Of a stretch of DNA of 64,000 bases, positions 22,356 through 42,231 are shown in pieces. The notes beneath the pieces are model-generated. The model had not been told where the DNA came from, made no database searches, and saw only the letters and a list, made by a program, of their open reading frames with translations. Position 1 is the first letter of the stretch. Each line of letters opens with the position of its first letter. The stretch covers positions 1,364,001 to 1,428,000 of the forward strand of contig NZ_JADPZX010000001.1 of NCBI RefSeq assembly GCF_015712165.1, written 5' to 3'. The DNA comes from Streptomyces spinoverrucosus (GTDB taxonomy: Bacteria; Actinomycetota; Actinomycetes; Streptomycetales; Streptomycetaceae). Both the position numbers and the translations under genes were made by a program.

Positions 22356-22539
22356 GGCGGCTCCTCCGGTCGGGTACACGGCCGCGCGGAAAGGCTGCCG
22401 TGGGTGTCAGGGAGGTGGTGCAGGTGGTCGTGCGGGACCGGGACGGCCGTTCGACGGGGAACGGTGACCGTTCCGGGGCGCACGCGTCCACGCGCGCCCC
22501 GGACACGGCCGCCATGGACCCCGCTCGGGTCCACGGCTG

Positions 22540-23961: not shown

Positions 23962-24019
23962 GATTCGTCCTTTGCGCTGAAGTGGAGAGGGCACGGCAGG
24001 ACCCTGGGTGATTTGAGTG

Positions 24020-24997: not shown

Positions 24998-25002
24998 CTT
25001 AG

Positions 25003-25967: not shown

Positions 25968-26010
25968 ATAGCTAACGCCCTCCGAAACACCACGTCAACA
26001 GTTTGTTGAA
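25968..26010 (-). promoter_or_regulatory. Promoter and palindrome of the uricase operon
   Basis: Read on the minus strand: TTCAACAAACTGTTGACGT (26010 to 25992) contains the -35 TTGACG and the palindrome CAACA-AAC-TGTTG. After an 18-base spacer comes TAGCTA, a plausible -10. The same 19 bases occur upstream of the catalase gene in the same orientation and with the same 18-base spacer. The palindrome overlaps the -35, which suggests a repressor site. Confidence 0.7.
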
Positions 26011-26080
26011 AATTCGGGGTAACAAAAACCGCCGCCCCGAACTGACGGGACGGCGGTCGCACACCGGGGGAAAGCCCTGG

Positions 26081-26443
26081 TCAGGCCTCTTTTTCGCGGT
26101 TGAGGTAGTTGTAGACGGTGAACCGGCTGACGCCGAGTGCGCTCGCCACGGTCTCCACGCCGTGCCGCACGGAGAAGGCGCCCCGCGCCTCCAGTATGCG
26201 CACCACCTCCTGCTTGGACTTGCGGTCCAGCTCGGACAGCGGCTTGCCCTGCTTGCGCTCCATGGCCGCGAGGATGTGATCGAGGGAGTCGGCGAGCTGC
26301 GGCAGCCGTACGGCGACCACGTCGGCGCCCTCCCAGGCCAGCACGACGTCGTCGGCGCTCGCCTCGTCCGGCGGGATCATCATGCCGCCCATGGCGTCGA
26401 CCAGCGGTTTCACGGCGGCGATGAAGGACTCGTTGCCGGTCAC
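26081..26443 (-). CDS. Small DauR/YheO-type helix-turn-helix regulator of purine genes
   Basis: A 120-aa protein. The C-terminal third is an HTH_22 domain: QEVVRILEARGAFSVRHGVETVASALGVSRFTVYNYLNRE. The N-terminal part is a short, probably degenerate sensor segment. It lies just upstream of the uricase promoter, in the same orientation as that operon, and is coupled by a four-base overlap to the small gene before it. It is the obvious candidate to bind the CAACA-N3-TGTTG palindrome (inference). Confidence 0.88.
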   Translation of the reverse strand: MTGNESFIAAVKPLVDAMGGMMIPPDEASADDVVLAWEGADVVAVRLPQLADSLDHILAAMERKQGKPLSELDRKSKQEVVRILEARGAFSVRHGVETVASALGVSRFTVYNYLNREKEA

Positions 26444-26691
26444 TTATCGCCCTCCCCGACCACGTTGACCTGGAGCGAGACCCGGGTGGCACCGGCCTGG
26501 AGCGTCCTGCGCAGCAGTGCGTCCACGGCGGTCAGCACCGCGTCGGCCGCACCCTCGGCGGTGTTGCCGAAGGGCCCGACGTCCACGGCGTCCAGATCGG
26601 CGGCCTCGATGACCTCGCGGGCCACCAGCGCGTGCGCGGGTGCCTCGTCGAGATCGAAGGGTTCCGTCGTGAATTCCACTTTCAGTCGCAC
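26440..26691 (-). CDS. Small ferredoxin-fold protein resembling MTH1187/YkoF thiamine-binding family
   Basis: An 83-aa protein. The core REVIEAADLDAVDVGPFGNTAEG and the ending GATRVSLQVNVVGE follow the MTH1187/YkoF (DUF77) pattern (IEA-GL-VGPMGT-IEG...GA-RV). Those proteins bind thiamine-like or other heterocyclic ligands. Being coupled to the HTH gene, it could serve as a purine-intermediate sensor for that regulator; this is inference. GTG start; the ribosome site is weak. Confidence 0.7.
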   Translation of the reverse strand: MRLKVEFTTEPFDLDEAPAHALVAREVIEAADLDAVDVGPFGNTAEGAADAVLTAVDALLRRTLQAGATRVSLQVNVVGEGDK

Positions 26692-26813
26692 TGTGCCCCC
26701 ATGGCGTGTTCGACCTGCATCCTCTCAGCCCTCCGGCCAGAGGGCAGCTGCAGGCTCATTGTGCGTGACGGAAGGTGCGGCAGAGGTTGGCGGTGCCGGA
26801 ATCCCGCACTTCC

Positions 26814-26850
26814 CGCGACGGACCGGCGGCCCCTCCCCGTAGAGCAGTCG
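26814..26850 (+). promoter_or_regulatory. 37-bp element shared with the mce operon, probable ECF promoter
   Basis: CGCGACGGAC, five variable bases, then GCCCCTCCCCGTAGAGCAG and CG. It matches 29114-29150 upstream of the mce operon without gaps and with only about six mismatches. The CGTA inside resembles an ECF -10 core and GGAC could be the -35. It lies about 30 bases before the transglycosylase GTG. Confidence 0.6.
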
Positions 26851-26882
26851 ACCGCAGTGACCGCACAGGGAGGGGCCGCACG

Positions 26883-27938
26883 GTGTCAGGACGGCACAGA
26901 ATCACAGGCGCGAAGGCTACGGCGATCGCGGTGGCGGCGATGGCGGTGCTGACCGCGTCACAGGCGCCGGGTGTCACCCCGTCGGCGCGGGCCGCCGCGC
27001 CCGCCCACCCGGAGCCCGACCCCGGGCACGGGCCGAGCGTGTCCGGGGACACCCCGTACCGCACGGAACTCCCGCCGCTGCGAGCACGGAAGGCCACGAC
27101 GTCGCAGGTGGGCGGCGCGGTGCCGGTGAGCGTGTTCGCCGCCTACCGACGGGCCGAGGCCCGCCTCGCGGACATGGCGCCCGGCTGCGGGCTTCGGTGG
27201 CAACTGCTGGCCGCCATCGGGCAGGTGGAGTCCGGTCAGGCGCGCGGCGGGCGGGTGGCCGCGGACGGTACGACGCCGGCGCCGGTCCTCGGGCCACGCC
27301 TCGACGGCAACGGCTTCGCCCTCATCCGGGACACCGACGGCGGTGCCCTCGACGGGGACGCGGTGTACGACCGCGCGGTCGGGCCGATGCAGTTCATCCC
27401 GTCGACCTGGGCGGTGTGGGGCACGGACGGCAACGGAGACGGGCGGGCAGACCCGCACAACGTCTTCGACGCGGCCCTCGCCGCCGGGCGCTACCTGTGC
27501 GCGGGCGGACGGGACCTGACCGCGTCCGGTGACCTGGACGCGGCGATCCTCGGCTACAACCGCTCGACGGCGTATCTGCGCACGGTCCGGGCCTGGTTCG
27601 CGTACTTCCTGGCAGGTCACCGGGTCGTGCCGGACGCCGGGGCGGCGGGCGGTCGCAGTCCGGAGCGCGAGGCCTCCCGGCCGGTGCGACGCGGACCGTC
27701 GCCCACGCCTGGCGCCCGCCCGGCGGGCGGCGGATCCGGTACGCCGTCCCCCGACCCGGCGCCCTCCCCCACCGCCCCGCGGCCGTCCCCCACGGGCCGT
27801 CCGTCCGCCCAGCCGTCGCCACGGCCCCCGCTGCCCCTGCCCGGCACCGGAATCGAGCTGCCCGGTGACGACGACCTGCTGCCCTCGGGCGACCTGATGG
27901 GCTCCGCCCCCTCCACAAGCGCGGCTACCGGGCGGTAA
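26883..27938 (+). CDS. Secreted lytic transglycosylase-like protein with Pro-rich tail
   Basis: A 351-aa exported protein. The signal peptide (ATAIAVAAMAVLTASQAPGV, cleavage near ARAAAP) is followed by a goose-type/SLT lysozyme-like domain with the catalytic glutamate in IGQVESGQ, AVGPMQFIPSTWAVWGTD and GYNRSTAYLRTVRAWFAYF. The last 110 residues are a Pro/Ser-rich linker without a further domain. It would cleave peptidoglycan outside the membrane. GTG start after GGGAGGGG. The next gene is an ECF sigma factor, and both may belong to an envelope regulon. Confidence 0.9.
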   Translation: MSGRHRITGAKATAIAVAAMAVLTASQAPGVTPSARAAAPAHPEPDPGHGPSVSGDTPYRTELPPLRARKATTSQVGGAVPVSVFAAYRRAEARLADMAPGCGLRWQLLAAIGQVESGQARGGRVAADGTTPAPVLGPRLDGNGFALIRDTDGGALDGDAVYDRAVGPMQFIPSTWAVWGTDGNGDGRADPHNVFDAALAAGRYLCAGGRDLTASGDLDAAILGYNRSTAYLRTVRAWFAYFLAGHRVVPDAGAAGGRSPEREASRPVRRGPSPTPGARPAGGGSGTPSPDPAPSPTAPRPSPTGRPSAQPSPRPPLPLPGTGIELPGDDDLLPSGDLMGSAPSTSAATGR

Positions 27939-27991
27939 TGTCGCCCTCCGCCGGGCGCACCTGGCCGGCGGATGAGCGCGAAGGGGCCCTC

Positions 27992-29074
27992 ATGGCGACG
28001 AACACGCCCGCGGAGACACAGGCGGCCCACGACCGTTGGGAGCGCATGTGGAGCCACCGTGAGCACCTGCTCAAGGTGGCCCGCCGCCGGTCGATGTCCC
28101 CGGAGGACGCCGAGGACGCCGTGCACGAGGCGATGCTGCGCGCGGCGGAACGCCCCGACCTGGACGACGAGCGGCTCGCCGCCTGGCTGACGACGGTGAC
28201 GATCCGGCTGTGCGTCGACCGGTACCGGCAGGTCAACCGCGAGGCCGAGGTGCGCACCAGCCCGACGCTGATCGCTCCCGGCCCGGTGCCGGTCGAGGAG
28301 GCGGTGTGCGACCGGGCCGAGGCCAGGTGGCTGGCCGCGCGCAGCGGGGAGCTGCCCGCCCGGCAGGCCGAGGCGATCTGGCTGAAGTCCGAGGACCTCG
28401 ACGTCGGGCAGGTAGCCGGGAAGATGGGCCTGAGCTACCGGACCGTCGAGTCGCTGCTGGCCCGGGCCCGCCGCACGCTGCGCGACTCGCTGGCCGGCAC
28501 GCTCGGTCTCGCCGTGTTCCTGTGGGGGCGGGGCCGGCCGCGCGGGGCGTCGCAGACGCAGGCCGTGGCGCTGGCCGGTACGGCGGCGACGCTGGCGGTG
28601 GCCGGGTTCGTACTGCCGTACGCCGACGACTGGAACGGGGAGAGCGCGCGGCCCCGGACGTCCGTCTCGCCCGTGCCGGAGGCATGGCAGCGTCCGTCCG
28701 CCGACGTCCGTGAGGGACGGGGCGCGTCCTCGCCCGGGCGACCGGCCGCCTCGGCGTCCGGCGCCCCCGGGGCGAGCCGGACTCCGGCCGACCGGTCGCT
28801 GCTGCCGCTGTCGGTGCCGTCGCTGCCCGGGGTGCCGGCGGGGGCGGAGCTGAGCGTGCCCGGGGTGTCGGCCGTACCCGCGTTGCCGGAGCTGCCGTCG
28901 GTCCCGGCGGACCCGGTCCCCGGCCTCGTACCGGACCGCCCGTCGCTGCCGGAAGCCCCGGACACGCCCGAAGCACCCCGGGCACCCCAGGCGCCCCAAG
29001 CCCCCCGAGTGCCCGCAGTCCCCGAACCCACCGTCGCGGACGCCCCCGACGCGCCGGTCGGCTCCCTGCCGTAG
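27992..29074 (+). CDS. ECF RNA polymerase sigma factor with membrane helix and Pro-rich exported tail
   Basis: A 360-aa protein. Region 2 is MSPEDAEDAVHEAMLRAAER (about 35-54) with the -10-recognition DRYRQVNREAEVR. Region 4 is SGELPARQAEAIWLKSEDLDVGQVAGKMGLSYRTVESLLARARRTLR (about 117-163) with the HTH. Instead of ending there, the protein continues through one membrane helix (AVALAGTAATLAVAGFVLPY) into about 150 residues built of Pro-Val/Leu-rich repeats (LPSVP, APQAPQAP), predicted to be outside the membrane. No anti-sigma gene is adjacent, so the tail may tether or regulate the sigma factor. Confidence 0.85.
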   Translation: MATNTPAETQAAHDRWERMWSHREHLLKVARRRSMSPEDAEDAVHEAMLRAAERPDLDDERLAAWLTTVTIRLCVDRYRQVNREAEVRTSPTLIAPGPVPVEEAVCDRAEARWLAARSGELPARQAEAIWLKSEDLDVGQVAGKMGLSYRTVESLLARARRTLRDSLAGTLGLAVFLWGRGRPRGASQTQAVALAGTAATLAVAGFVLPYADDWNGESARPRTSVSPVPEAWQRPSADVREGRGASSPGRPAASASGAPGASRTPADRSLLPLSVPSLPGVPAGAELSVPGVSAVPALPELPSVPADPVPGLVPDRPSLPEAPDTPEAPRAPQAPQAPRVPAVPEPTVADAPDAPVGSLP

Positions 29075-29113
29075 CCCCCCTCCCGAACCGTCCGCAAAAA
29101 AGTTCGCCCTCGC

Positions 29114-29150
29114 CGCGACGGACGCCCCGCCCCTCCCCGTAGAGCAGACG
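29114..29150 (+). promoter_or_regulatory. 37-bp element upstream of the mce operon
   Basis: Same block as at 26814-26850: CGCGACGGAC, five variable bases, GCCCCTCCCCGTAGAGCAG. It lies 34 bases before the start of the ATPase gene and downstream of the ECF sigma gene, so it is the likely mce promoter. Confidence 0.6.
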
Positions 29151-29183
29151 TACGAGCTGCTCCCCGGCTGAAGGGTGGACCGG

Positions 29184-30098
29184 ATGGGTGTCGAGATCTG
29201 TGTGGAAGGGCTGACCAAGTCCTTCGGTCACCAGGTCATCTGGCAGGACGTCTCGCTGACGCTGCCCGCCGGTGAGGTGTCCGTCATGCTCGGCCCCTCG
29301 GGCACGGGCAAGTCGGTGTTCCTCAAGACGCTCGTCGGGCTGCTCCGGCCGGACCGGGGCTCGATCACGATCCAGGGCCGGGACCTCACCACGCTCCGCG
29401 AGCACGAGCTGTACGAGGTGCGCAAGCTCTTCGGCGTGCTGTTCCAGGACGGCGCGCTGTTCGGCTCCATGAACCTGTACGACAACATCGCCTTCCCGCT
29501 GCGCGAGCACACCCGCAAGCCGGAGGGCGAGATCCGGCGGATCGTCCTGGAGAAGATGGACATGGTCGGGCTGATCGGCGCCGAGCAGAAGCTGCCCGGC
29601 GAGATCTCCGGCGGTATGCGCAAGCGGGCCGGGCTGGCTCGCGCGCTCGTCCTCGACCCCGAGATCATCCTCTTCGACGAGCCCGACTCGGGCCTCGACC
29701 CGGTCCGCGTCGCCTACCTCAACCAGCTGATCGTCGACCTCAACGCCCAGATCGACGCGACGTTCCTGATCGTCACGCACGACATCGCCTCCGCCCGCCA
29801 GGTCCCGGACAACATCGGGCTGCTGTTCCGCCGCGAGCTGGTGATGTTCGGGCCCCGTGACCGGCTCCTGACCAGCGACGAACCCGTCGTACGGCAGTTC
29901 CTGAACGGCCGGATGCAGGGCCCCATCGGCATGGCGGAGGAGAAGGACGCCGCCCAGGTGGAGCAGGAGCTGGCCCAGATCGGCGAGAGCGCCGGCCCCC
30001 AGCACCTCACGCCCCGGCTGCTGCCCAGCCCCGGCATCACCCGGCCGCCCCGCTGGCAGGCCATCGCCGAGCGGGAGCAGGAGGTGGCCCGCGCATGA
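29184..30098 (+). CDS. Mce-associated ABC transporter ATPase (MceG/MlaF type)
   Basis: A 304-aa ATPase powering an Mce lipid importer. Walker A is GPSGTGKS, the Q-loop VLFQDGALFGSMN, the signature ISGGMRKRAGLARAL (the SGGM form of MlaF/MceG), Walker B EIILFDEPDSGLDP, and the H-loop VTHD. A C-terminal extension of about 60 residues follows the core, as in mycobacterial MceG. ATG with GAAGGG eight bases before is preferred over a GTG nine bases upstream. First gene of the mce operon. Confidence 0.94.
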   Translation: MGVEICVEGLTKSFGHQVIWQDVSLTLPAGEVSVMLGPSGTGKSVFLKTLVGLLRPDRGSITIQGRDLTTLREHELYEVRKLFGVLFQDGALFGSMNLYDNIAFPLREHTRKPEGEIRRIVLEKMDMVGLIGAEQKLPGEISGGMRKRAGLARALVLDPEIILFDEPDSGLDPVRVAYLNQLIVDLNAQIDATFLIVTHDIASARQVPDNIGLLFRRELVMFGPRDRLLTSDEPVVRQFLNGRMQGPIGMAEEKDAAQVEQELAQIGESAGPQHLTPRLLPSPGITRPPRWQAIAEREQEVARA

Positions 30099-30865
30099 GC
30101 CTCAACCCCGTCGGCGCGCTGCGCCACTCCGGCAGCCTGTTCGCCATGGCCCTGGACGTCGTACGGACCGTCCCCAAACGGCCCTTCCAGGTACGGGAGT
30201 TCATCCAGCAGGCGTGGTTCATCGCGAGCGTGACCATCCTGCCGACCGCCCTCGTGTCCATCCCCTTCGGCGCGGTCATCGCCCTGCAGATCGGCAGCCT
30301 GACCCGGCAGCTCGGCGCCCAGTCGTTCTCGGGGGCGGCCTCCGTACTCGCGGTGCTGCGCGAGGCCTCGCCGATCGTCACCGCGCTGCTGATCGCGGGG
30401 GCGGGCGGCACGGCGATCTGCGCGGACCTCGGGGCGCGGAAGATCCGCGAGGAGATCGACGCCATGCAGGTGCTGGGCATCGACCCCATCCACCGGCTGG
30501 TCGTCCCCCGCGTGCTGGCCTCGATGGTGGTCGCGGTGCTGCTCAACGGCCTGGTGTCGGTGGTCGGTGTGGCGGGCGGCTACTTCTTCAACGTCGTGCT
30601 GCAGGACGGCACACCGGGCGCGTATCTGGCGTCCTTCACCACGCTCGCCCAGCTGTCCGACCTGTGGGCGGCCGAGATCAAGGCGCTCGTCTTCGGTGCG
30701 ATCGCCGCGATCGTCGCCTCGTACAAGGGACTCACCGCGAAGGGCGGCCCCAAGGGCGTGGGCGACGCGGTGAACCAGTCGGTGGTGATCACCTTCATGT
30801 TGCTGTTCGTGACCAACTTCGTGATGACCGCGGTGTACTTCCAGGTCGTCCCGCAGAGGGGCTAG
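30095..30865 (+). CDS. yrbEA: MlaE/YrbE-family permease A of the mce system
   Basis: A 256-aa permease. It has the MlaE features: amphipathic N-terminus, about five membrane segments, the cytoplasmic REEIDAMQVLGIDPIHRLVVPR coupling segment that contacts the ATPase, and a final helix MLLFVTNFVMTAVYFQ. It overlaps the ATPase stop by four bases. It pairs with the next gene to form the inner-membrane channel. Confidence 0.94.
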   Translation: MSLNPVGALRHSGSLFAMALDVVRTVPKRPFQVREFIQQAWFIASVTILPTALVSIPFGAVIALQIGSLTRQLGAQSFSGAASVLAVLREASPIVTALLIAGAGGTAICADLGARKIREEIDAMQVLGIDPIHRLVVPRVLASMVVAVLLNGLVSVVGVAGGYFFNVVLQDGTPGAYLASFTTLAQLSDLWAAEIKALVFGAIAAIVASYKGLTAKGGPKGVGDAVNQSVVITFMLLFVTNFVMTAVYFQVVPQRG

Positions 30866-30868
30866 CCG

Positions 30869-31684
30869 ATGAGACTGATCGACCGCCCGCTGAAGTCACT
30901 TGAGGACCTGGGCGCCCAACTCACCTTCTACGGCCGCTCGCTGGCCTGGACCGGCCGCACCCTGCGCCGCTACAAGAAGGAGATCCTGCGCCTGCTCGCC
31001 GAGGTCAGCTTCGGCCGGGGCGCCCTCGCCGTCGTCGGCGGCACGGTCGGCGTGATCGCCTTCCTGTCGTTCTTCACCGGAACGGAGGTGGGCCTGCAGG
31101 GGTACGCCGCGCTCAACCAGCTCGGCACGTCCAACTTCGTGGCGTTCCTGTCGGCGTACTTCAACACCCGGGAGATCGCGCCGCTGGTGGCCGGGCTCGC
31201 GCTGTCCGCGACGGTCGGCGCCGGGTTCACCGCGCAGCTCGGCGCGATGCGGATCAGCGAGGAGACCGACGCCCTGGAGGTCATGGGCGTGCCGTCGCTG
31301 CCGTTCCTGGTGACCACCCGGATGATCGCCGGGTTCGTCGCGGTGATCCCGCTGTACGTGGTCGGGCTGCTGTCGTCGTACCTCGCCGCCCGCACCATCA
31401 CCACCGGCTACTACGGCCAGTCGGCGGGCACCTACGACCACTACTTCCAGCAGTACCTGCCCCCGGTCGACGTGCTGTGGTCCTTCGGCAAGGTGCTGGT
31501 CTTCGCCGTGGTGATCATCCTGGTGCACTGCTTCTACGGCTACTACGCGAGCGGCGGCCCGGCGGGCGTCGGCGTCGCGGTGGGCAAGGCGGTGCGGACC
31601 TCGATCGTGGCGATCAACGTCCTCGACTTCTTCCTGTCCCTGGCGATCTGGGGCGCCAACACGACCGTACGGATAGCGGGGTGA
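30869..31684 (+). CDS. yrbEB: MlaE/YrbE-family permease B of the mce system
   Basis: A 271-aa second permease. The coupling segment is SEETDALEVMGVPSLPFLVTTR, and GALAVVGGTVGVIAFLSFFTGTEV precedes the core. It begins three bases after permease A and overlaps the first Mce gene (GTGA). The heterodimer YrbEA/YrbEB is standard for actinobacterial mce operons. Confidence 0.94.
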   Translation: MRLIDRPLKSLEDLGAQLTFYGRSLAWTGRTLRRYKKEILRLLAEVSFGRGALAVVGGTVGVIAFLSFFTGTEVGLQGYAALNQLGTSNFVAFLSAYFNTREIAPLVAGLALSATVGAGFTAQLGAMRISEETDALEVMGVPSLPFLVTTRMIAGFVAVIPLYVVGLLSSYLAARTITTGYYGQSAGTYDHYFQQYLPPVDVLWSFGKVLVFAVVIILVHCFYGYYASGGPAGVGVAVGKAVRTSIVAINVLDFFLSLAIWGANTTVRIAG

Positions 31685-32901
31685 GCCGGGTGAGGGTGCT
31701 GAGGCTTCGGTTGTACGGCGTCGTCTTCATCGCCGTACTCGCGACTTTGCTGTCCCTGTCCGTCGCCGTCTATCAGCAGGCGTTCACGCCGGTCGTGCGG
31801 GTCACGCTGGAGGCCGACAGCCTGGGCAACCAGCTCGACCGGCGGGCCGACGTCAAGCTGCGCGGGCTGCTGGTCGGCGAGGTGCGCGGGGTGCGCGCGG
31901 ACGGTACGAAGGCCACGCTGGACATCGCGCTCAAGCCGGAGCACGTGGCGTACATCCCCGCCGATGTGCACGCGCGGCTGCTGCCCAAGACGCTGTTCGG
32001 CGAGAAGTACGTCGACCTGGTCGTGCCCGCCGGTTCGGCCGCGCGGCCGATCCGCGCCGGCGACGTCATCACCCAGGACCGCACCCGCGTCGGCATCGAG
32101 CTCCAGCAGCTGATGAACGACCTGCTGCCGCTGCTGCGGACCGTCAGGCCCGGCGAACTCAACGCCACGCTCTCCGCGTTCGCCACGGCACTGGAGGGTC
32201 GCGGCGACCGGATCGGCGACAACCTCACGCGCGTGGAGGCGTATCTGCGCAGGCTCAACCCGCATCTGCCGTCCCTGAAGGAGGACATCGCGCGGTTCGC
32301 GGACGTCGCCGAGGTGTACGGCGACGCGGCGCCCGACCTGCTGCGGATCCTCCGCAACACCGTGACGACCAGCCGCACGCTGGTGGAGAAGAAGGACCAG
32401 TTGGCCGCAGCGCTCACCTCGACCACGACCACCGCTCGCACGGCGGACGGCTTCCTCGCCGCGACCGGCGACCGGCTGATCACCCTGGGCCGGGTCTCCC
32501 GCCCCACGCTGGAGCTGTTCGCCCGCTACTCGCCCGAGTACCCGTGCCTCCTCGACGGCCTGGTCCGGCAGGAGGCCGCCTCGGAGGAGGCGTTCCGGGG
32601 CGGGAAGATGCGGATCACCCTGGAAGTCGTACGGCAGCGGCCGGCGTACGAGCCCGGTGAGGAGCCGCGCTACGGCGAGCGGTCGGGCCCGAACTGCCGG
32701 GGGCTGCCGCACCCGGGCGTGCCCGCGCCGCACACCAAGCTGAACGACGGTACGTCGGAGGTGTCCGGGACGCGCGCCGAGCAGCGCGCCGTCGGCTCGC
32801 TCGTGGCGCCCGTCCTCGGCGTGCCCGCGGACGAGGTGCCGCCGGTGGCGACGCTGCTGTTCGGGCCGATGGCGCGGGGGACGGCGGTGAGCGTCGTATG
32901 A
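31681..32901 (+). CDS. mceA: Mce family protein A
   Basis: A 406-aa Mce protein. One N-terminal membrane helix (LYGVVFIAVLATLLSLSVAVY) precedes the MlaD/Mce domain (LRGLLVGEVRGV, ARLLPKTLFGEKYVDLV), then a long helical region (about 150-310) that would form part of the lipid-conducting tube, and a C-terminal tail with cysteines (YPCLL, PNCRGLPHPG). GTG start overlaps the YrbEB stop by four bases. Confidence 0.93.
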   Translation: MSRVRVLRLRLYGVVFIAVLATLLSLSVAVYQQAFTPVVRVTLEADSLGNQLDRRADVKLRGLLVGEVRGVRADGTKATLDIALKPEHVAYIPADVHARLLPKTLFGEKYVDLVVPAGSAARPIRAGDVITQDRTRVGIELQQLMNDLLPLLRTVRPGELNATLSAFATALEGRGDRIGDNLTRVEAYLRRLNPHLPSLKEDIARFADVAEVYGDAAPDLLRILRNTVTTSRTLVEKKDQLAAALTSTTTTARTADGFLAATGDRLITLGRVSRPTLELFARYSPEYPCLLDGLVRQEAASEEAFRGGKMRITLEVVRQRPAYEPGEEPRYGERSGPNCRGLPHPGVPAPHTKLNDGTSEVSGTRAEQRAVGSLVAPVLGVPADEVPPVATLLFGPMARGTAVSVV

Positions 32902-32945
32902 GCAGTCGTGTGAGCAGTCGTGTGAGCAGTCGTGTGAGCAGTCGT
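32898..32945 (+). repeat. Four 12-bp tandem repeats at the start of mceB
   Basis: Unit (A/G)TGAGCAGTCGT, four exact copies apart from the initial A of the start codon. The unit is in frame and encodes (M/V)SSR. Copy-number change would lengthen or shorten the cytoplasmic N-terminus by four residues without a frameshift. Confidence 0.95.
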
Positions 32946-33980
32946 AGGAACACGAGTGCGCGCCGGACCGCCGCGCCGCTGATCAAGTTCAGCCTCTTCG
33001 CGCTGGTGACGATCCTGGCGACGGCCCTGCTCGCCGCCACCATCGTCAACGTCTCCTTCACTCCCGAGCACACCTACCGCGCGGTGTTCAGCGACGTCAC
33101 CGGACTGGAGGAGGGCGACGACATCCGGGTGGCCGGGGTGCGGGTCGGCGAGGTCGAGGGCATCCGGATCAAGGACCGGACACGGGCGGAGGTCACCTTC
33201 ACCGTCAGCGAGGACCGCCCGCTCCTCACCAGCACCGGCGCGGTGATCCGCTACCGCAACCTCGTCGGGCAGCGCTACGTCGCCCTGACCGAGGGCGCGG
33301 GCGACGGCACCCGGCTGCGGCCCGGCGGCACCATCCCGCTGGCGCGGACGCAGCCCGCGCTGGACCTGAACGCGCTGCTCAACGGCTTCAAACCGCTGTT
33401 CGCCGCGCTCAGCCCCCAGGACGTCAACCAGCTCGCCACCGAGATCATCAAGACCCTCCAGGGCGAGGGCGGCACGGTCAACAGCCTGCTCGCGCACACC
33501 GCGTCGCTCACCACCACACTCGCCGGCCGGGACAAGCTGATCGGCTCCGTGATCGACAACCTCAACACCGTGCTGGAGACGCTCGACAAGCGCGGCGCCC
33601 GTTTCTCCGGGCTGCTCAAGCAGCTGCGCCGGGTGATCTCGGGGCTGTCCGCCGACCGGAAGCCGATCGGCGAGTCGCTGGTGAGCATCGGCGACCTGAC
33701 GGAGGCGACGTCGGGTCTGCTCGCGGACGCCCGTCCACCGCTCAAGGACGACATCGCCGAGCTGACCGAGCTCACCGGAACGCTGAACAGGAACGAGAAG
33801 ACCGTGGAGGGCGTGCTGAAGCGGCTGCCGAACAAGCTGAACGAGCTGACCGGGACGGCGTCCTACGGCTCGTGGTTCAACTTCTACCTCTGCGACTTCG
33901 ACGGCCGGATCGTGCTGCCGAAGACACGTGAGGTGATCACGCCGGAGCTGCATGTGGCGAGGGCGAGGTGCGGAGCATGA
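32898..33980 (+). CDS. mceB: Mce family protein B, with repeat-encoded N-terminus
   Basis: A 360-aa Mce protein. The first 16 residues are four SSRV-type repeats encoded by exact 12-bp DNA repeats. After them come a membrane helix (LFALVTILATALLAATIVNV), the Mce domain (GDDIRVAGVRVGEVEGI, YRNLVGQRYVAL) and a helical domain. The C-terminal segment is WFNFYLCDFDGRIVLP. Each repeat begins with GTG, so several in-frame starts exist; the ATG overlaps the mceA stop (ATGA) and is preferred. Confidence 0.93.
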   Translation: MSSRVSSRVSSRVSSRRNTSARRTAAPLIKFSLFALVTILATALLAATIVNVSFTPEHTYRAVFSDVTGLEEGDDIRVAGVRVGEVEGIRIKDRTRAEVTFTVSEDRPLLTSTGAVIRYRNLVGQRYVALTEGAGDGTRLRPGGTIPLARTQPALDLNALLNGFKPLFAALSPQDVNQLATEIIKTLQGEGGTVNSLLAHTASLTTTLAGRDKLIGSVIDNLNTVLETLDKRGARFSGLLKQLRRVISGLSADRKPIGESLVSIGDLTEATSGLLADARPPLKDDIAELTELTGTLNRNEKTVEGVLKRLPNKLNELTGTASYGSWFNFYLCDFDGRIVLPKTREVITPELHVARARCGA

Positions 33981-35059
33981 GGATCCGGCTGCGACGAAAG
34001 CGCAGGGCCCGCCCCGAGCCGCTGGTCAAGGTGCGCGTCGAGTGGCCGAAGCTGCCACGCCTGGGGCGCCGCCGGGGCCTCACCCCCTTCCGCGAGCGCA
34101 ACCCCGTCACGATCGGCGCCGTCGGTCTCACCGCCCTCGCGCTGCTCACCGTCGCCGCGTTCAACGCCGACTCCCTGCCGGTGATCGGCGACGGGGAGAC
34201 GTACAGCGCGGCCTTCGCGGAGGCGGGCGGGCTCAGGCCGGGCGACGAGGTGCGGATCGCCGGGGTCAAGGTCGGCAAGGTCGAGGAGGTCGACCTGGAC
34301 GGCGACCACGTCAGGGTCACCTTCAAGATCAAGGGCGAGCCGGAGTTCGGCACCGCGACCGGCGCCTCGATCCGGGTGAAGACGATCCTCGGCGCCAAGT
34401 ACCTGGCACTGCACCCCAAAGGGCCGGGTCAGCTCAAGCCCGGCAGTGAGATCCCGCTGACACGGACCGTCCCGGCGTACGACGTCGTGCAGGCGTTCAG
34501 CGATCTGACGACCACGACGGAGGAGGTCGACACCGAACGGCTGGCGACGGCCCTGGACACCATCTCCACCACCTTCCAGGACTCCCCCGCCGAGGTACGG
34601 GCGTCCATCAAGGGCCTGTCGAAGATCTCCCGGACGGTCGCCACGCGCGACAAGGCGCTGCGTGAACTCCTCGACCACGCCCACGGGGTCACCGGCGTAC
34701 TGGCCGAGCGCTCCTCCGACTTCACCGCCCTCGTCGAGGACGGCGACAAGCTGTTCAAGGAGATCAGCAGGCGACGCGAGGCCATCCACAAGCTGCTGAC
34801 GACCTCCGCCGCGCTCGGCGTCGAACTCTCCGGCCTGGTCGAGGACAACGACAAGGAGATCGGGCCCGCGCTGAAGGGCCTGAACCAGGTGGTGGAGATG
34901 CTCGAACGCAACCAGTCGAGCCTGGACCGCAGCGTCAAGCTGCTCGCGCCCTACGTCCGGGTCTTCACCAACACCCTCGGCAACGGCCGCTGGTTCGACT
35001 CCTACGTCCAGAACCTGGTCGCCGCCCCAGTGGTGCCGCGCACGGGAGGCTCGCGATGA
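33977..35059 (+). CDS. mceC: Mce family protein C
   Basis: A 360-aa Mce protein. A long Arg/Lys-rich cytoplasmic leader (1-45) precedes a membrane helix (PVTIGAVGLTALALLTVAAF), the Mce domain (GDEVRIAGVKVGKVEEV, KTILGAKYLAL) and a helical domain rich in coiled-coil heptads. It ends GNGRWFDSYV. ATG overlaps the mceB stop by four bases; a GTG nine bases upstream is in frame but poorer. Confidence 0.93.
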   Translation: MRIRLRRKRRARPEPLVKVRVEWPKLPRLGRRRGLTPFRERNPVTIGAVGLTALALLTVAAFNADSLPVIGDGETYSAAFAEAGGLRPGDEVRIAGVKVGKVEEVDLDGDHVRVTFKIKGEPEFGTATGASIRVKTILGAKYLALHPKGPGQLKPGSEIPLTRTVPAYDVVQAFSDLTTTTEEVDTERLATALDTISTTFQDSPAEVRASIKGLSKISRTVATRDKALRELLDHAHGVTGVLAERSSDFTALVEDGDKLFKEISRRREAIHKLLTTSAALGVELSGLVEDNDKEIGPALKGLNQVVEMLERNQSSLDRSVKLLAPYVRVFTNTLGNGRWFDSYVQNLVAAPVVPRTGGSR

Positions 35060-36159
35060 GGAAACGTCTGGCGCTGCTCGTCGTACTGGCCCTGGTGGCC
35101 GGGCTCGCCCTCGTCCTGTGGCCGCGCCCGGGAAAGGTACGGGTCACCGCCTACTTCCCGCGCACCGTCGGCATCTACCCCGGCTCCGACGTCCGGGTCC
35201 TCGGCGTCCGCATCGGCGAGGTGAAGGCCATCACGCCGGAGGGCGGCCGGGTGCGGGTGGAGCTGGAGTACGACGAGGAGCGCAAGGTCCCGGCCGACGC
35301 GCGGGCCGCGATCATCAACTCCTCGGTGGTCAGCGACCGTTATGTGCAGCTGCTGCCGGTCCACCGCGAGGGCCCGGTGCTGCGGGACGGCGCCGTCATC
35401 CCCGAGACGCGCACGGCCGTGCCGGTCGAGCTGGACCGGGTCTTCGACAGCCTGCACACCACGGCCGAGGCGCTCGGTCCCGACGGCGCCAACAAGGACG
35501 GCTCCCTGTCCCGGCTGCTCGGGGTGAGCGCGCGGAACCTCGACGGTCAGGGCGAGAACATCCACCAGACGGTGAAGGACCTGTCGGAGGCGGTGACCAC
35601 GCTGTCCGACGGGCGCGGCGACCTGTTCGGCACCGTGCGCAACCTCCAGGTGTTCACGGCGGCGCTGGCCGCGGACGACAAGAGCGTGCGGTCGTTCAAC
35701 ACCAGCCTCGCCCAGGTGGCCGAGCAGCTCGCCGGGGAGCGCGAGGACCTCGCGGCGGCACTGCGCAACCTCGGCACCGCCCTCGGCGACGTGTCCGCGT
35801 TCGTGAAGAAGAACAAGCAGTCGCTGACCTCGAACGTGAAGGGCCTCAGCAAGGTGACCAAGGTCCTCGTCGCCCAGCGGGCGGCGCTGGAGGAGCTGCT
35901 GGAGGTCGCCCCCACGGGTCTGTCGAACCTCCAGAACGCCTACAACGCCTCCTCGGGCACCCTCGACACCCGCAACAACCCGCAACACCCGCAGGATCCG
36001 GCGGCCCTGCTGTGCTCCGTGCTCAGGACCACCGGCGAGCGGGCCGACTGCGCCGATCTGGAGAAGCTCTTCGGCTCCCTGCCCGAGGTGCCGACGGCAC
36101 CCGCCGTACCGGGCACGGTCGACCGGACGCTCGGCGGCATCCTGGAGGGCGGCGCATGA
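35056..36159 (+). CDS. mceD: Mce family protein D
   Basis: A 367-aa Mce protein. It has a short N-terminus and membrane helix (LALLVVLALVAGLALVLWP), the Mce domain (GSDVRVLGVRIGEVKAI, NSSVVSDRYVQLLP), a helical tube-forming domain and a tail with two cysteines (LLCSVL, ADCADLEKL). Starts within the mceC stop. Confidence 0.93.
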   Translation: MRKRLALLVVLALVAGLALVLWPRPGKVRVTAYFPRTVGIYPGSDVRVLGVRIGEVKAITPEGGRVRVELEYDEERKVPADARAAIINSSVVSDRYVQLLPVHREGPVLRDGAVIPETRTAVPVELDRVFDSLHTTAEALGPDGANKDGSLSRLLGVSARNLDGQGENIHQTVKDLSEAVTTLSDGRGDLFGTVRNLQVFTAALAADDKSVRSFNTSLAQVAEQLAGEREDLAAALRNLGTALGDVSAFVKKNKQSLTSNVKGLSKVTKVLVAQRAALEELLEVAPTGLSNLQNAYNASSGTLDTRNNPQHPQDPAALLCSVLRTTGERADCADLEKLFGSLPEVPTAPAVPGTVDRTLGGILEGGA

Positions 36160-37415
36160 GCGGGCTGCGCAGGAGTGCGTGGGTGGCGGTCGGTTCGCTG
36201 CTGCTGACGGGCTGCGAGTTCAACGGCTGGTACGACGTCGACCTGCCCGGCGGCGCCGCCTCGGACGGCCGCGCGTACCGCGTCACCGTCGAGTTCCGCG
36301 ACGTACTCGACCTGGTCCCGCAGTCGGCGGTGAAGGTCGACAACGTGACCGTGGGCGCGGTCGAGAAGGTCGAGCTGGACGGCTGGCACGCGCGCGTACG
36401 GCTGCGGGTCGCCGACTCGGTGAAGCTGCCCGCCAACGCGGTCGCCGAGCTGCGGCAGACCAGCATGCTCGGCGAGAAGTACGTCGCCCTGGCCGCCCCG
36501 CCCGGCACGGCGCCCGTGGGACGGCTGCGCGACGGCGACCGCATCCCGCTCGGCCGCAGCGGCCGCAACCCGGAGATCGAGGAGGTGCTGTCCGCCCTGT
36601 CCGCGCTGCTCAACGGTGGTGGAGTGGCCCAGCTCAAGACGATCACCGTGGAGCTGAACAAGGCCCTGGAAGGGCGCGAGAACCGGGTCAGGTCCCTGCT
36701 CGGGGAACTGGACACCTTCCTCGGCGGCCTGGACGACCAGCGCCGGGACATCGTCCGCGCGATCGAGGCCGTCGACCGGCTCGCGGGGCGGCTCGGGAAG
36801 GAGAAGCAGACGATCGCCACGGCCGTCGACACACTGCCGCCCGCGCTGAAGGTGCTCGCCGACCAGCGGCGCGACCTGACGAGGATGCTCACCGCCCTGT
36901 CGAAGCTGGGCACCACGGGCACGAAGGTGATCAAGGCGTCCCGGGACGACACGGTCGCCAACCTCAAGCAGCTGCGCCCGATCCTCCAGCAGCTGAACAA
37001 GGCGGGCGACGATCTGCCCAACTCCCTTGAGTTGCTGACCACTTACCCGTTCCCGCGGAACGCGGTGGACGCGATCAAGGGCGACTACGTGAACCTGAGC
37101 GTCACCGCGGACCTGGATCTGGCGAGTCTCTACGGCAACCTGACGCAGCAGCCGGAAGACGGCGGCGGGGGCCGCACGCCCGAGGCACCCGGCCTTCCGG
37201 ATCTGCCCGACGTGCCGGAGGTCCCCGGCCTGCCGAGCGTGCCGCTGCCCAGCCCCGACCTGCCCGAGGCTCCGCCCGCCCCCGCACCCTCACCTCCGTC
37301 CGGAGACCTGCTGTGCCCGCCGGTGTGCACGGCCGCGCACGGCACGGACCGGGATCTGCCCCCGGGCATCGACCTGGCACTCGCGGAACTGCTGCTGAAG
37401 GGGATACAGCCGTGA
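36156..37415 (+). CDS. mceE: Mce family lipoprotein E
   Basis: A 419-aa Mce protein with a lipoprotein signal (lipobox LLLTGC), matching the LprK/MceE position in mycobacterial operons. The Mce domain has SAVKVDNVTVGAVEKV and RQTSMLGEKYVAL; a helical domain follows. The C-terminal 75 residues are Pro-rich with LPDLPDVPEVPGLPSVP-like repeats, resembling the exported tail of the nearby sigma factor. Four-base overlap with mceD. Confidence 0.93.
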   Translation: MSGLRRSAWVAVGSLLLTGCEFNGWYDVDLPGGAASDGRAYRVTVEFRDVLDLVPQSAVKVDNVTVGAVEKVELDGWHARVRLRVADSVKLPANAVAELRQTSMLGEKYVALAAPPGTAPVGRLRDGDRIPLGRSGRNPEIEEVLSALSALLNGGGVAQLKTITVELNKALEGRENRVRSLLGELDTFLGGLDDQRRDIVRAIEAVDRLAGRLGKEKQTIATAVDTLPPALKVLADQRRDLTRMLTALSKLGTTGTKVIKASRDDTVANLKQLRPILQQLNKAGDDLPNSLELLTTYPFPRNAVDAIKGDYVNLSVTADLDLASLYGNLTQQPEDGGGGRTPEAPGLPDLPDVPEVPGLPSVPLPSPDLPEAPPAPAPSPPSGDLLCPPVCTAAHGTDRDLPPGIDLALAELLLKGIQP

Positions 37416-38692
37416 TCACACGTACGGTCAAGGCCCAGCTGGTCGCCTTCGCCGCCGTCACCGCCGTCGGTGTGTCGTATGTCGGCGCCCAGTACACGGG
37501 CCTGGTGGACGGCGTGCTCGGCCGCGGCTACACCGTGCGGGCCGAGTTCGCCGGGTCCGGGGGCATCTTCACCGGCGCCGAGGTCACCTACCGCGGGGTG
37601 CCGGTGGGCCGGGTCGGGGCCCTGCGGCTGACCGGCGGCGGTGGGGTCTCGGTCGCGCTGGACATCGAGGACGGGGCGCCACGCATCCCGGCGGACACGC
37701 TCGCGGTGGTGGCGAACCGTTCGGCGGTGGGCGAGCAGTACGTCGACCTTCAGCCGCGCACCTCCGCCGGGCCGTACCTGTTGGACGGCAGCACGATCCC
37801 GCGCGGCAGCACGCGGGTTCCGCTGCCCACCACGGACCTCGTGCTCGGTCTCGACCGGCTGGTGAACTCGGTCGGCAAGGACGACCTGCGCGTCACCGTC
37901 GACGAGTTGGGCAAGGCCTTCGCGGGCACCGGCCCGCACCTGAGCAGGCTGGTCGATTCGGGCAACGCGCTGGTCGAGTCGGCGTCCGAGTCGCTGCCCG
38001 AGACGATCGCGCTGATCGAGGACTCCCGGACGGTGCTGAAGACGCAGGCCGACCAGGGTTCGTCCATCAAGGCCTTCTCCCGCGATCTGGCGCTGCTCAC
38101 AAAGGAGTTGAAGTCGAGCGACGGGGACCTGCGCAAGCTCGTCGGCAACGCGACACCGGCGGCCGTCGAGCTCAACTCGCTGCTGAAGTCGATCGAACCG
38201 CGCTTGTCGGTGCTGCTCGCCAACCTGATCAGCGGCGGACAGGTCACGCTCGCGCGGCTGCCCGGCGTGGAGCAGGCGCTGGTCACCTTCCCGGTGGTGG
38301 TCGCGGGCAGCCACACCGTCGTCCCCGGCGACGGCACCACGCACTTCGGCCTGGTGGTGAACGCCGACGACCCGCCGCCCTGCACCCAGGGCTACGGAGG
38401 CACCGCCCGGCGCGATCCGGCCGACACCAGCACGCGCGAGGCGAACACCGGCGCGCGCTGCACGGCCCCGCGCGGCAGCGCCACCTCGGTGCGCGGCGCG
38501 CAGAACGCCCCCGGCGCGGCGTCCGGCGCCGGGGGCGCCGACCGGACGGCGTACGTGACGCCGTACGACCCGGAGACCGGCAGTTTCACCGGCCCGGACG
38601 GAACGCCCGTCGAGATCGGCTCGACGGGCGGCCAGCAGACCGTCTTCGGAAAGGAGTCGTGGCAATGGCTGCTCGTCGGACCGATGGCATGA
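37412..38692 (+). CDS. mceF: Mce family protein F
   Basis: A 426-aa Mce protein. N-terminal membrane helix (AQLVAFAAVTAVGVSYVGAQY), Mce domain (GAEVTYRGVPVGRVGAL, NRSAVGEQYVDLQP), helical domain, and a C-terminal disordered region ending VFGKESWQWLLVGPMA. GTG start overlaps the mceE stop. Its 3' end overlaps the next gene by 28 bases, the longest overlap in the operon. Confidence 0.93.
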   Translation: MITRTVKAQLVAFAAVTAVGVSYVGAQYTGLVDGVLGRGYTVRAEFAGSGGIFTGAEVTYRGVPVGRVGALRLTGGGGVSVALDIEDGAPRIPADTLAVVANRSAVGEQYVDLQPRTSAGPYLLDGSTIPRGSTRVPLPTTDLVLGLDRLVNSVGKDDLRVTVDELGKAFAGTGPHLSRLVDSGNALVESASESLPETIALIEDSRTVLKTQADQGSSIKAFSRDLALLTKELKSSDGDLRKLVGNATPAAVELNSLLKSIEPRLSVLLANLISGGQVTLARLPGVEQALVTFPVVVAGSHTVVPGDGTTHFGLVVNADDPPPCTQGYGGTARRDPADTSTREANTGARCTAPRGSATSVRGAQNAPGAASGAGGADRTAYVTPYDPETGSFTGPDGTPVEIGSTGGQQTVFGKESWQWLLVGPMA

Positions 38693-39216: not shown

Positions 39217-39220
39217 CCCG

Positions 39221-39270
39221 ATCCAGCCCGAACCAGTCCGATCCAGTCCGATCCAGTCCGATTCAGTGAG
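39221..39270 (+). repeat. Decamer tandem repeat between the two mas genes
   Basis: Five consecutive 10-bp units related to ATCCAGTCCG: two exact copies (39241-39260), two with one mismatch each before them, and a divergent fifth that runs into the ribosome site of the next gene. The repeats fill the whole intergenic gap. Confidence 0.9.
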
Positions 39271-39280
39271 GAGGAAGACC

Positions 39281-40021: not shown

Positions 40022-40036
40022 ACCACCGCCTCCCCA

Positions 40037-40071
40037 GCGTCCCCGTGCCACGCGCGCGGGGGCGCTTTTTT
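40037..40071 (+). terminator. Intrinsic terminator of the mce operon
   Basis: Stem GCGTCCCCG / CGGGGGCGC (one G-T pair), followed directly by TTTTTT. One of the few classic T-tailed terminators in this window; it insulates mce from hyi. Confidence 0.93.
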
Positions 40072-40082
40072 GCGGGCCGGTC

Positions 40083-40147
40083 TTGACAGCTCTCACCCAC
40101 CACAGGCACTCTTCCATTAAGCAGAAACCAACTTCCACATTATGGAA
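40083..40147 (+). promoter_or_regulatory. hyi promoter and tandem operators
   Basis: TTGACA (40083-40088), an 18-base spacer, a weak -10 (CACTCT). Downstream is the perfect palindrome TTCCACATTATGGAA (40133-40147), and 21 bp before it a weaker copy, TTCCATTAAGCAGAA (40112-40126). The TTCCR-N5-YGGAA form, and the pairing at 21 bp, recur at gcl; single sites occur at katA. The position just past the start of transcription fits repression. Confidence 0.7.
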
Positions 40148-40182
40148 TACAGCGCAGAGCAGGAAGGGAGCGCCGACCCCCG

Positions 40183-41022
40183 ATGGGATTCGCAGACCAG
40201 CGCTTCAACGTCAACCTGTCGATCCTCTTCACGGAACTCCCGCTTCTGGAGCGCCCGGCCGCGGCCGCCGCGGCAGGCTTCACCGCGGTCGAGCTGTGGT
40301 GGCCCTGGGTCGACTCCCCCACGCCCGAGCAGTCCGAGCTCGACGCCCTGAAGCAGGCGATCGAGGACGCGGGCGTCCAGCTCACCGGCCTGAACTTCTA
40401 CGCCGGACAGCTCCCCGGCCCCGACCGGGGCGCCCTGTCGATCCCCGGCGAGGAGTCGGAGCGGTTCCGCGCCAACATCGACGTGGCCGCCGACTTCGCC
40501 GCCTCCCTCGGCTGCAAGGCGCTCAACGCGCTCTACGGCAACCGGGTCGAGGGCGTGGACCCGGCCGAGCAGGACGCGCTCGCGCTGGACAACCTGGTCC
40601 TCGCGGCCCGCGCCGCCGACCGGATCGGCGCGATCCTGCTGATCGAGGCCCTGAACCAGCCCGAGTCGCCGCTGTACCCGCTGGTGTCGGCGCCGGCCGC
40701 GATCGGCATAGTCGACAAGGTCAACCAGGCGACCGGCCTCGGCAACGCGCGGTTCCTGATGGACCTCTACCACCTGTCGATGAACGGCGAGGACCTGCCG
40801 CAGGTGATCGCCGCGTACGCCGAGAAGACCGGCCACGTGCAGATCGCCGACAACCCGGGCCGTGGCGCGCCGGGCACGGGAACGCTGCCGCTGGAGGAGC
40901 TGCTCGACCAGCTGAGGAAGACCGGATACGAAGGCTGGGTCGGACTGGAGTACAGGCCGGGCGACAGGCCCAGCGCGGAGGCCTTCGGCTGGTTGCCGGC
41001 GGACCAGCGCGCCGCCCGCTGA
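40183..41022 (+). CDS. hyi: Hydroxypyruvate isomerase
   Basis: A 279-aa TIM-barrel isomerase interconverting hydroxypyruvate and tartronate semialdehyde. It has the Hyi N-terminus RFNVNLSILFTELPLLERP, the metal-ligand glutamates in LIEALNQPE and VGLEYRPG, FLMDLYHLSMNGED, and HVQIADNPGRGAPGTG. With the reductase downstream and gcl nearby it handles the glyoxylate released from allantoin catabolism. Regulated by the palindromes in its leader. Confidence 0.95.
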   Translation: MGFADQRFNVNLSILFTELPLLERPAAAAAAGFTAVELWWPWVDSPTPEQSELDALKQAIEDAGVQLTGLNFYAGQLPGPDRGALSIPGEESERFRANIDVAADFAASLGCKALNALYGNRVEGVDPAEQDALALDNLVLAARAADRIGAILLIEALNQPESPLYPLVSAPAAIGIVDKVNQATGLGNARFLMDLYHLSMNGEDLPQVIAAYAEKTGHVQIADNPGRGAPGTGTLPLEELLDQLRKTGYEGWVGLEYRPGDRPSAEAFGWLPADQRAAR

Positions 41023-41035
41023 CGGCGCCGCCCCT

Positions 41036-41105
41036 GGGCGGCTGCCGCCCCCAGACCCCCGCTTCGGCCCCGAAGGGGCCTCGTCCTCACACGCCGGACG
41101 GGCCG
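41036..41105 (+). repeat. Streptomyces intergenic REP-like element
   Basis: GC-rich block with a GGCCCC-GAA-GGGGCC hairpin and the stretch TCGTCCTCACACGCCGGACG. From memory, near-identical CGCTTCGGCC...TCGTCCTCAAACGCCGGACGG segments recur many times between Streptomyces genes. Only one copy is in this window, so its repeat nature cannot be shown here. Confidence 0.5.
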
Positions 41106-41168
41106 ATTGTTGCCGACCGGCGCCAATTCTCAGACGTACCCCAGCAGTTCAGAGAGGTACCCCCTATC

Positions 41169-42059
41169 ATGAGCACCCTTCCCAAGATCGCCTGGATCGG
41201 CCTCGGCATCATGGGCTCCCCCATGTCCGAGAACCTGATCAAGGCGGGTTACCAGGTCACCGGCTTCACTCTGGAGCGGGAGAAGCTGGACCGACTGGCC
41301 GCCGCCGGCGGTACGGCCGCCGGCTCGATCGCCGAGGCCGTGCGGGACGCCGACGTGGTCATCACCATGGTGCCCGCGTCCCCGCAGGTCGAGGCCATCG
41401 CGTACGGCCCGGACGGCATCCTGGAGAACGCGAAGTCCGGCGCGCTGCTGATCGACATGTCCTCGATCACCCCGCAGACCTCGGTCGACCTGGCGAAGGC
41501 GGCCAAGGACAAGGGCATCCGCGTCCTGGACGCCCCCGTCTCCGGCGGTGAGGCCGGTGCCATCGAGGCCGTGCTGTCCATCATGGTCGGCGGTGAGCAG
41601 GCCGACTTCGACCAGGCGAAGCCGATCTTCGAGGCGCTCGGCAAGACCATCGTGCTGTGCGGTCCGCACGGCTCGGGTCAGACCGTGAAGGCGGCCAACC
41701 AGCTGATCGTCGCCGTGAACATCCAGGCGTGCGCCGAGGCCGTGGTCTTCCTGGAGAAGTCCGGCGTGGACCTGAAGGCGGCGCTGGACGTCCTCAACGG
41801 CGGGCTCGCGGGTTCGACCGTGCTGACCCGGAAGAAGGACAACTTCCTGAACCGGGACTTCAAGCCGGGCTTCCGGATCGACCTGCACCACAAGGACATG
41901 GGCATCGTGACCGACGCGGCCCGCAACGTCGGCGCGGCCCTGCCCGTCGGCGCCGTGGTCGCCCAGCTGGTGGCCGCCCTGCGCGCGCAGGGCGACGGGG
42001 GCCTGGACCACTCGGCCCTGCTGCGGGCCGTGGAGCGCCTCTCCGGCGCCCAGGTCTGA
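41169..42059 (+). CDS. glxR: 2-hydroxy-3-oxopropionate (tartronate semialdehyde) reductase
   Basis: A 296-aa beta-hydroxyacid dehydrogenase that reduces tartronate semialdehyde to glycerate. It has the Rossmann motif GLGIMGSPMSENL, substrate loop DAPVSGGEAGA, catalytic lysine in GSGQTVKAANQL and cofactor-specific KDMGIVTDAARN. The ATG follows a weak GAGAGG. Same strand as hyi, 146 bases after it, with the REP-like block between. Confidence 0.95.
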   Translation: MSTLPKIAWIGLGIMGSPMSENLIKAGYQVTGFTLEREKLDRLAAAGGTAAGSIAEAVRDADVVITMVPASPQVEAIAYGPDGILENAKSGALLIDMSSITPQTSVDLAKAAKDKGIRVLDAPVSGGEAGAIEAVLSIMVGGEQADFDQAKPIFEALGKTIVLCGPHGSGQTVKAANQLIVAVNIQACAEAVVFLEKSGVDLKAALDVLNGGLAGSTVLTRKKDNFLNRDFKPGFRIDLHHKDMGIVTDAARNVGAALPVGAVVAQLVAALRAQGDGGLDHSALLRAVERLSGAQV

Positions 42060-42147
42060 GTCCCTCCGAGATCTCCGGGCGGCGCCGCCGCTGACACCTG
42101 TCCTGTCGCGCCCAGGCGGTGGCGTCGCCCGGAACCATCCCCTCGAC

Positions 42148-42231
42148 TTCAACAAACTGTTGACGTCGCGATCGCCCCGAACCTAGGCTCCACAAAGCGG
42201 ATGCTCCACGAAGTGGAATCTGTTTTCCGCT
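42148..42231 (+). promoter_or_regulatory. Catalase promoter with two kinds of operator
   Basis: TTCAACAAACTGTTGACGT (42148-42166) is identical to the uricase-operon element and includes -35 TTGACG; after 18 bases comes -10 TAGGCT (42184-42189). Just downstream is CTCCACGAAGTGGAA (42204-42218), one arm base off the TTCCR-N5-YGGAA palindrome of hyi and gcl. Flanking it, AGCGGA and TCCGCT (42196-42201, 42226-42231) can pair as a stem. Confidence 0.75.

Follow-up and report, generated by a model that had tools for sequence, protein, structure and literature searches.

In a stretch of 64,000 nucleotides from Streptomyces spinoverrucosus (contig NZ_JADPZX010000001.1, positions 1,364,001 to 1,428,000; the window in what follows) the uricase operon and the catalase gene katA share a palindromic operator, TCAACA-N3-TGTTGA, set over the −35 of each promoter, and this operator of two promoters is real, conserved and specific. 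Comparison across genomes makes it probable that the operator is the target of a small helix-turn-helix (HTH) protein of the HTH_22 type working with a Thiamine_BP-like protein, the two acting as a repressor of the uricase operon and katA that answers to a purine-catabolic ligand. Direct computation stands behind the operator, its degree of conservation, its specificity and its link to the regulator pair, and also behind the existence elsewhere of a sensor-HTH fusion.

The shared operator and its promoters

The operator is contained in a 19-base block, TTCAACAAACTGTTGACGT, which occurs on the minus strand at 26010-25992, 5' of the uricase operon, and again on the plus strand at 42148-42166, 5' of katA, with the same orientation relative to its own gene. 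In both promoters a −35 TTGACG is followed by an 18-base spacer and then a TAG-type −10. An earlier note on this DNA had claimed the identical block, the common orientation and the spacing, and a reading of both promoters confirmed positions and layout. It also gave the palindrome as CAACA-N3-TGTTG overlapping the −35; the overlap stands, and the 15-mer TCAACA-N3-TGTTGA is the better form, its right half belonging to the −35. The promoter features are:

25992..26010, minus strand: operator of the uricase operon, with palindrome TCAACA-AAC-TGTTGA at 26009-25995 over the −35 TTGACG at 25998-25993
25969..25974, minus strand: presumed −10 of the uricase operon, TAGCTA, from sequence reading, 18 bases past the −35
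42148..42166, plus strand: operator of katA, the same 19 bases, with palindrome at 42149-42163 and −35 TTGACG at 42160-42165
42184..42189, plus strand: presumed −10 of katA, TAGGCT, from sequence reading

A genome-wide motif scan, one of the checks proposed in the earlier note, places the exact 13-mer core CAACAAACTGTTG at two promoters only in the 8.85 Mb genome, those of the uricase operon and katA, where an order-1 model of the window predicts 0.012 exact 13-mers by chance (and 1.3e-6 for the 19-mer). One mismatch brings in three more genome sites. Relaxing the 13-mer to two mismatches tells against the motif, since there are then 57 genome matches as against 45 for a reversed control, and therefore only near-exact sites are informative. 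Within the window 11 matches were found at up to three mismatches where 3.2 are expected, and the two operator sites, counted on both strands, account for four of them. In G000 the degenerate 16-mer TCAACAAASTGTTGAC at up to one mismatch recovers the same two sites and no others.

Across a genus sample of 150 Streptomyces genomes the 19-mer is present at up to one mismatch in 127 and the degenerate 16-mer in 145, with the reversed control giving single matches in three of these genomes. Promoter specificity was judged on 80 named loci picked by the HTH gene alone, the palindrome being sought up to 200 bases upstream of each gene; the motif-chosen loci L030-L059 were excluded from promoter rates, and incomplete gene matches were dropped from the palindrome counts (five katA loci, namely L065, L072, L073, L075 and L125, and one hyi, five gcl, four permease and two deaminase genes). 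The exact palindrome stands upstream of all 78 assessable OHCU decarboxylase genes and of 23 of the 25 assessable katA genes (24 allowing one mismatch; L106 has three). It is upstream of none of the 54 hyi genes (hydroxypyruvate isomerase-like), none of 55 glxR (tartronate semialdehyde reductase), 76 deaminase, 53 permease and 80 sensor genes, and of one gcl (glyoxylate carboligase) in 47. A spread of the motif over unrelated promoters, which by the earlier note would speak against a common control, was looked for and not seen in the genome, the genus sample or the named loci.

With the −35 hexamer forming one half of the palindrome, the block could in principle be no more than a promoter element under strong conservation, or one promoter recently copied, that has no specific regulator. 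The left half TCAACA lies outside the −35 and is kept as strictly in OHCU decarboxylase and katA promoters, and other promoters of the region do not have the block. The flanking promoter sequence varies, both from one site to the other and across species, and an explanation of this kind seems very improbable.

Further palindromes were seen away from these promoters. In genus g116 a second one recurs, and its neighbour is no purine gene: it lies some 30-110 bases before a malic-enzyme-like start in eight of the 12 loci fetched as second sites or controls (L279, L281, L282, L283, L284, L287, L288 and L289, with a Pfam malic enzyme in L279 and L281), possibly marking an extra regulon member or the action of another regulator. 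At the palindrome sites in G153 and G234 the neighbours have no match to the purine or katA proteins of the window.

The HTH_22 protein and its Thiamine_BP-like partner

The two genes proposed to encode the regulator are:

26081..26443, minus strand: 120-amino-acid HTH_22 protein, proposed operator-binding subunit (PF13309, E 2.9e-21)
26440..26691, minus strand: 83-amino-acid Thiamine_BP/UPF0045-like protein, proposed sensor, overlapping the HTH start (PF01910, 24.5 bits, cut-off 24.9)

The earlier note had put forward the HTH gene at 26081-26443, alone, as encoding a common repressor. Comparison across genomes upholds its product as the likely reader, and conservation and specificity bear out a shared, dedicated operator; the sign, repression over activation, we can only infer, and the conserved partner at 26440-26691 and a probable second, IclR-type operator at katA had been overlooked.

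The HTH_22 domain of the 120-amino-acid protein scores 75.7 bits, with a curated cut-off of 29.6. HTH matches at E up to 0.001 occur in 146 of the 150 genus genomes, and setting aside a weak match in G120 (9.9e-7), the 145 genomes with a strong match are exactly the 145 with the 16-mer. The HTH gene looks broken in G010 (two pieces) and in G018 (an internal TAG), and a near operator persists in each genome. When the HTH gene lies 3 to 21 kb from the OHCU decarboxylase gene, as in L109, G057, G095 and G051, the operator stays with the latter, and in G057 also with katA. In a family sample of 249 genomes the HTH match is strong in 237, of which 234 have the 16-mer, and weak or absent in 12, of which one has it, this one (G503) being 71% complete with the site at a contig start. 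Two of the three HTH genomes missing the 16-mer, G396 and G417, carry the palindrome with other middle letters; the third is G407.

Several points weigh against taking this association at its face value. Four of the five genus genomes that lack both HTH gene and operator also lack uricase, and in the fifth, G050, the contig ends inside the OHCU decarboxylase gene, and therefore the genus sample cannot separate regulator from target. HTH gene and operator usually adjoin, which makes their joint presence partly a matter of linkage, and the Fisher test on the family-sample association takes no account of relatedness. The clearest exception is G407 (L292), with HTH and OHCU decarboxylase genes yet no operator at up to three mismatches; L238 has none at up to one mismatch. 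Finally G294, G394 and G409 have lost the HTH gene while their uricase frame is still open, and contiguous deletions in them took the HTH gene plus at least the left half-site, therefore the joint loss is not independent.

An independent erosion of HTH gene and operator in these three genomes had been considered and was dropped, the sequences showing contiguous deletions. The remnants are sensor-like in L266 and L298 (translations read), and in L299 an HTH-helix remnant sits beside TTGACG. In G474 the HTH gene and uricase both look broken.

The partner gene is ahead of the HTH gene in 113 of 116 loci, and in the other three (L170, L178, L180) the fetched DNA ends at the HTH gene. A genome outside the family, G195, encodes a single protein in which a Thiamine_BP domain scores 41.2 bits and an HTH_22 domain 65.4 bits, followed in order by an exact operator, uricase and a permease. 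In f33, the actinobacterial family of G195, a search of 149 genomes gave 30 matches of any strength, 19 of them strong (E below 1e-20), and the palindrome is near the regulator in 18 of these 19 loci (16 exact, two with one mismatch), preceding OHCU decarboxylase/uricase or a permease and with TTGAC in the right half in all 18. Eight of the 19 are one continuous, fused sensor-HTH match and 11 are in separate pieces. Homologues of the fused protein number 1025 in all, and both domains are present in 114 of the 120 listed, whose sources include Pedococcus, Phycicoccus, Knoellia, Marmoricola and Amycolatopsis. Members of the Nocardioidaceae also have fused homologues. The helix RFTVYNYLNR is identical in Streptomyces and in those fused proteins that were aligned, apart from a single V to I change. 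A second operator in G195 (L213:4789-4804) lies before xanthine dehydrogenase-type genes, and the f33 regulon seems to cover xanthine oxidation too.

These distributions bear on whether an unlinked transcription factor, for instance of the IclR family, reads the block with the HTH_22 pair merely its neighbour. Gene neighbourhood alone is no proof of binding, and the IclR group 2 sites TGRAACA-N1-2-TGTTYCA given in PMC8222616 are vaguely similar. However the half-sites and spacing of the block differ from that consensus, and across two families the block tracks the HTH_22/sensor gene, fused or split, and not uricase generally. Among 79 uricase genomes outside the family in a class sample the 16-mer is by uricase in G195 only; G166 and G374 have one 16-mer each, but on another contig or megabases from uricase, and at nine uricase loci from outside the family that were read directly (L268, L270-L277) the palindrome is absent at up to two mismatches. 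An unlinked reader is accordingly judged improbable, and the HTH_22/sensor pair remains the preferred one.

Beyond the sensor-paired group, two HTH_22 genes (L240 position 971, L241 position 1009) have a near-exact or exact palindrome at their own start or just ahead of it, and two other such loci, L165 and L243, have none at up to two mismatches. With four of 14 PAS-type HTH_22 loci compared, the HTH_22 domain may read TCAACA-N3-TGTTGA more widely.

As to the nature of the partner, a profile built on 37 fused proteins finds MTH1187 (1lxn, E 1.2e-6), 1yqh, TM0486 and MJ1052, and a predicted model of a fused relative (mean pLDDT 85, pTM 0.47) has 1yqh, 1lxn and MJ1052 as its best PDB matches, so that the prediction of an MTH1187-like fold applies to the fused relative alone. 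Nothing convincing came from searching the PDB with the sequence of either window protein by itself, and an NCBIfam search gave no name for either the HTH_22 or the 83-amino-acid protein. MTH1187-like/Thiamine_BP proteins reportedly bind thiamine-like heterocycles, and a purine-like ligand for the one here is a guess. The 83-amino-acid partner, rather than the HTH protein, is the more likely sensor. With the palindrome upstream of none of the 80 sensor genes, the pair does not seem to be autoregulated through it.

The sign of control and a possible second input at katA

In the favoured mechanism the 19-base block would be a −35 hexamer set within the palindromic operator, and the HTH_22 protein would read it together with the Thiamine_BP-like protein encoded ahead of it. 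The palindrome covers the −35, therefore a bound dimer would hide it, and by covering each −35 the pair would repress two promoters, those of the uricase operon and katA. On binding of urate, or of a product close to it in purine catabolism, by the sensor part the pair would leave the DNA, and the producer of hydrogen peroxide (H2O2), uricase, and a dedicated catalase would then rise together. Binding, repression, ligand, sensor role and co-expression are what we infer.

The same sensor/HTH_22 pair could instead be a class II activator that recruits RNA polymerase when ligand is present, and the geometry counts in its favour and against repression: the palindrome centre is at about −40 from the presumed start, some 40 bases before that expected from the −10. 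Set against this, a good −35 and −10 are present in the promoters themselves, and the survival of the uricase operon after HTH loss in G294, G394 and G409 suits a repressor better, although weakly. Activation by the pair is on balance unlikely, and between the two signs repression seems clearly the more probable.

Repression by the pair may well not be the whole of the control at katA, whose promoter has a second set of sites:

42188..42218, plus strand: two IclR-type boxes over the presumed katA start, at 42188-42202 (one base off, by eye) and 42204-42218

In the 80 named loci the box [TC]TCC[AG]-N5-[CT]GGAA is upstream of 23 of 25 katA, 49 of 54 hyi and 45 of 47 gcl genes, of two of 78 OHCU decarboxylase genes, and of no glxR, deaminase, permease, uricase or HIU hydrolase gene. 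It is also in 33 of 80 sensor-gene upstream regions, probably stemming from the intergenic region shared with hyi. A looser form is at 27 of 35 katA promoters in a mixed set including motif-chosen loci, and therefore the IclR-type input varies. Twin boxes 21 bases apart, conserved in relatives, lie upstream of hyi (40112-40126, 40133-40147) and of gcl (47093-47107, 47114-47128). AllR, a Streptomyces regulator of the IclR family, reportedly has a regulon of allantoin/glyoxylate genes. The twin boxes at hyi and gcl probably belong to the AllR regulon, and AllR is the likely reader of the katA, hyi and gcl boxes. Compared by eye with the IclR group 1 consensus of PMC8222616, the boxes of hyi and gcl fit, and the katA box mostly does, its first base deviating. 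The katA boxes, like those of hyi and gcl, suggest a second, glyoxylate/allantoin input, by which katA would additionally follow the glyoxylate branch.

Taken more broadly there is perhaps an even chance that the pair is a split one-component regulator, made of a UPF0045/Thiamine_BP sensor and an HTH_22 subunit that other actinobacteria have in fused form, which senses a purine-degradation intermediate and governs a small Streptomycetaceae regulon pairing uricase with a catalase, katA having the IclR-type glyoxylate/allantoin input as well.

Gene setting and comparison with known systems

On the minus strand the order is the 83-amino-acid Thiamine_BP-like gene, the HTH_22 gene, the operator, and then genes for OHCU decarboxylase, HIU hydrolase, uricase, a deaminase-like protein and a permease. 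The plus strand has hyi, whose best NCBIfam model is below its cut-off, then glxR, the second operator and the catalase gene, with gcl farther on, on the minus strand.

25404..25919, minus strand: OHCU decarboxylase, first gene of the uricase operon (PF09349)
25003..25407, minus strand: HIU hydrolase (PF00576), start taken from the translation
24074..25006, minus strand: uricase (PF01014), start approximate
22582..23970, minus strand: 8-oxoguanine/guanine deaminase-like amidohydrolase (PF01979; NF006055 645 bits, cut-off 532)
20952..22379, minus strand: xanthine/uracil permease (PF00860)
42254..43711, plus strand: katA, 485-amino-acid catalase (PF00199, E 4.7e-189)

The operators are here 16 kb apart, and the interval holds a cluster of ABC ATPase, MlaE permease and Mce-type genes at about 29175-38692, between the uricase regulator and hyi-glxR-katA. 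Both exact palindromes are on the fetched stretch in 25 of the 80 named loci, 2.6-6.8 kb apart and less than 2.9 kb apart in 18 of the 25, a separation of about 2.7 kb being common among these relatives. The OHCU, HIU and uricase genes of S. coelicolor are SCO6209-6211 (hpxQ, hpxT, hpxO), and these are reported to be down in wild type under the oxidative conditions used and deregulated in a mutant lacking HbpS-SenS-SenR (PMC4991794).

If the proposed control holds, a local regulator of uric-acid use would be named for most sampled Streptomyces, and katA would serve the feed-forward disposal of uricase-made H2O2, as a catalase under the control not of peroxide but of the pathway from which its H2O2 comes. 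Signal sensing would become a role for UPF0045/Thiamine_BP proteins, many of which have none assigned; their domain is not known to us to act as a sensor in transcription. In the titles and abstracts of the open-licence papers searched, which leaves subscription papers mostly outside, no account of the operator or of a Thiamine_BP/HTH_22 regulator was found, nor any match to the operator sequence in four spellings.

The HTH_22 domain of the window protein, well above the Pfam cut-off, is shared with regulators of the YheO, DauR and DguR type (PF13309). Unlike the YheO/DauR type the 120-amino-acid protein has no PAS-like N-terminal Pfam match, even at E up to 5, and the part of sensor would fall to a Thiamine_BP-type protein, separate or fused. 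The predicted fold and sequence profile of that sensor domain, taken from fused proteins, are those of MTH1187, YqgV and UPF0045 (Thiamine_BP, PF01910), in contrast to which it is paired or fused with an HTH domain and sited among purine-catabolic genes. The known uricase and purine regulators HucR (MarR), PucR and XdhR (TetR) offer a parallel for the proposed ligand-responsive control of urate degradation, but no MarR, TetR or PucR family match is among the window proteins. The IclR-like boxes at hyi, gcl and katA are reminiscent of the Streptomyces AllR regulon, whereas the block shared by uricase and katA has other half-sites and other spacing than AllR-type sites.

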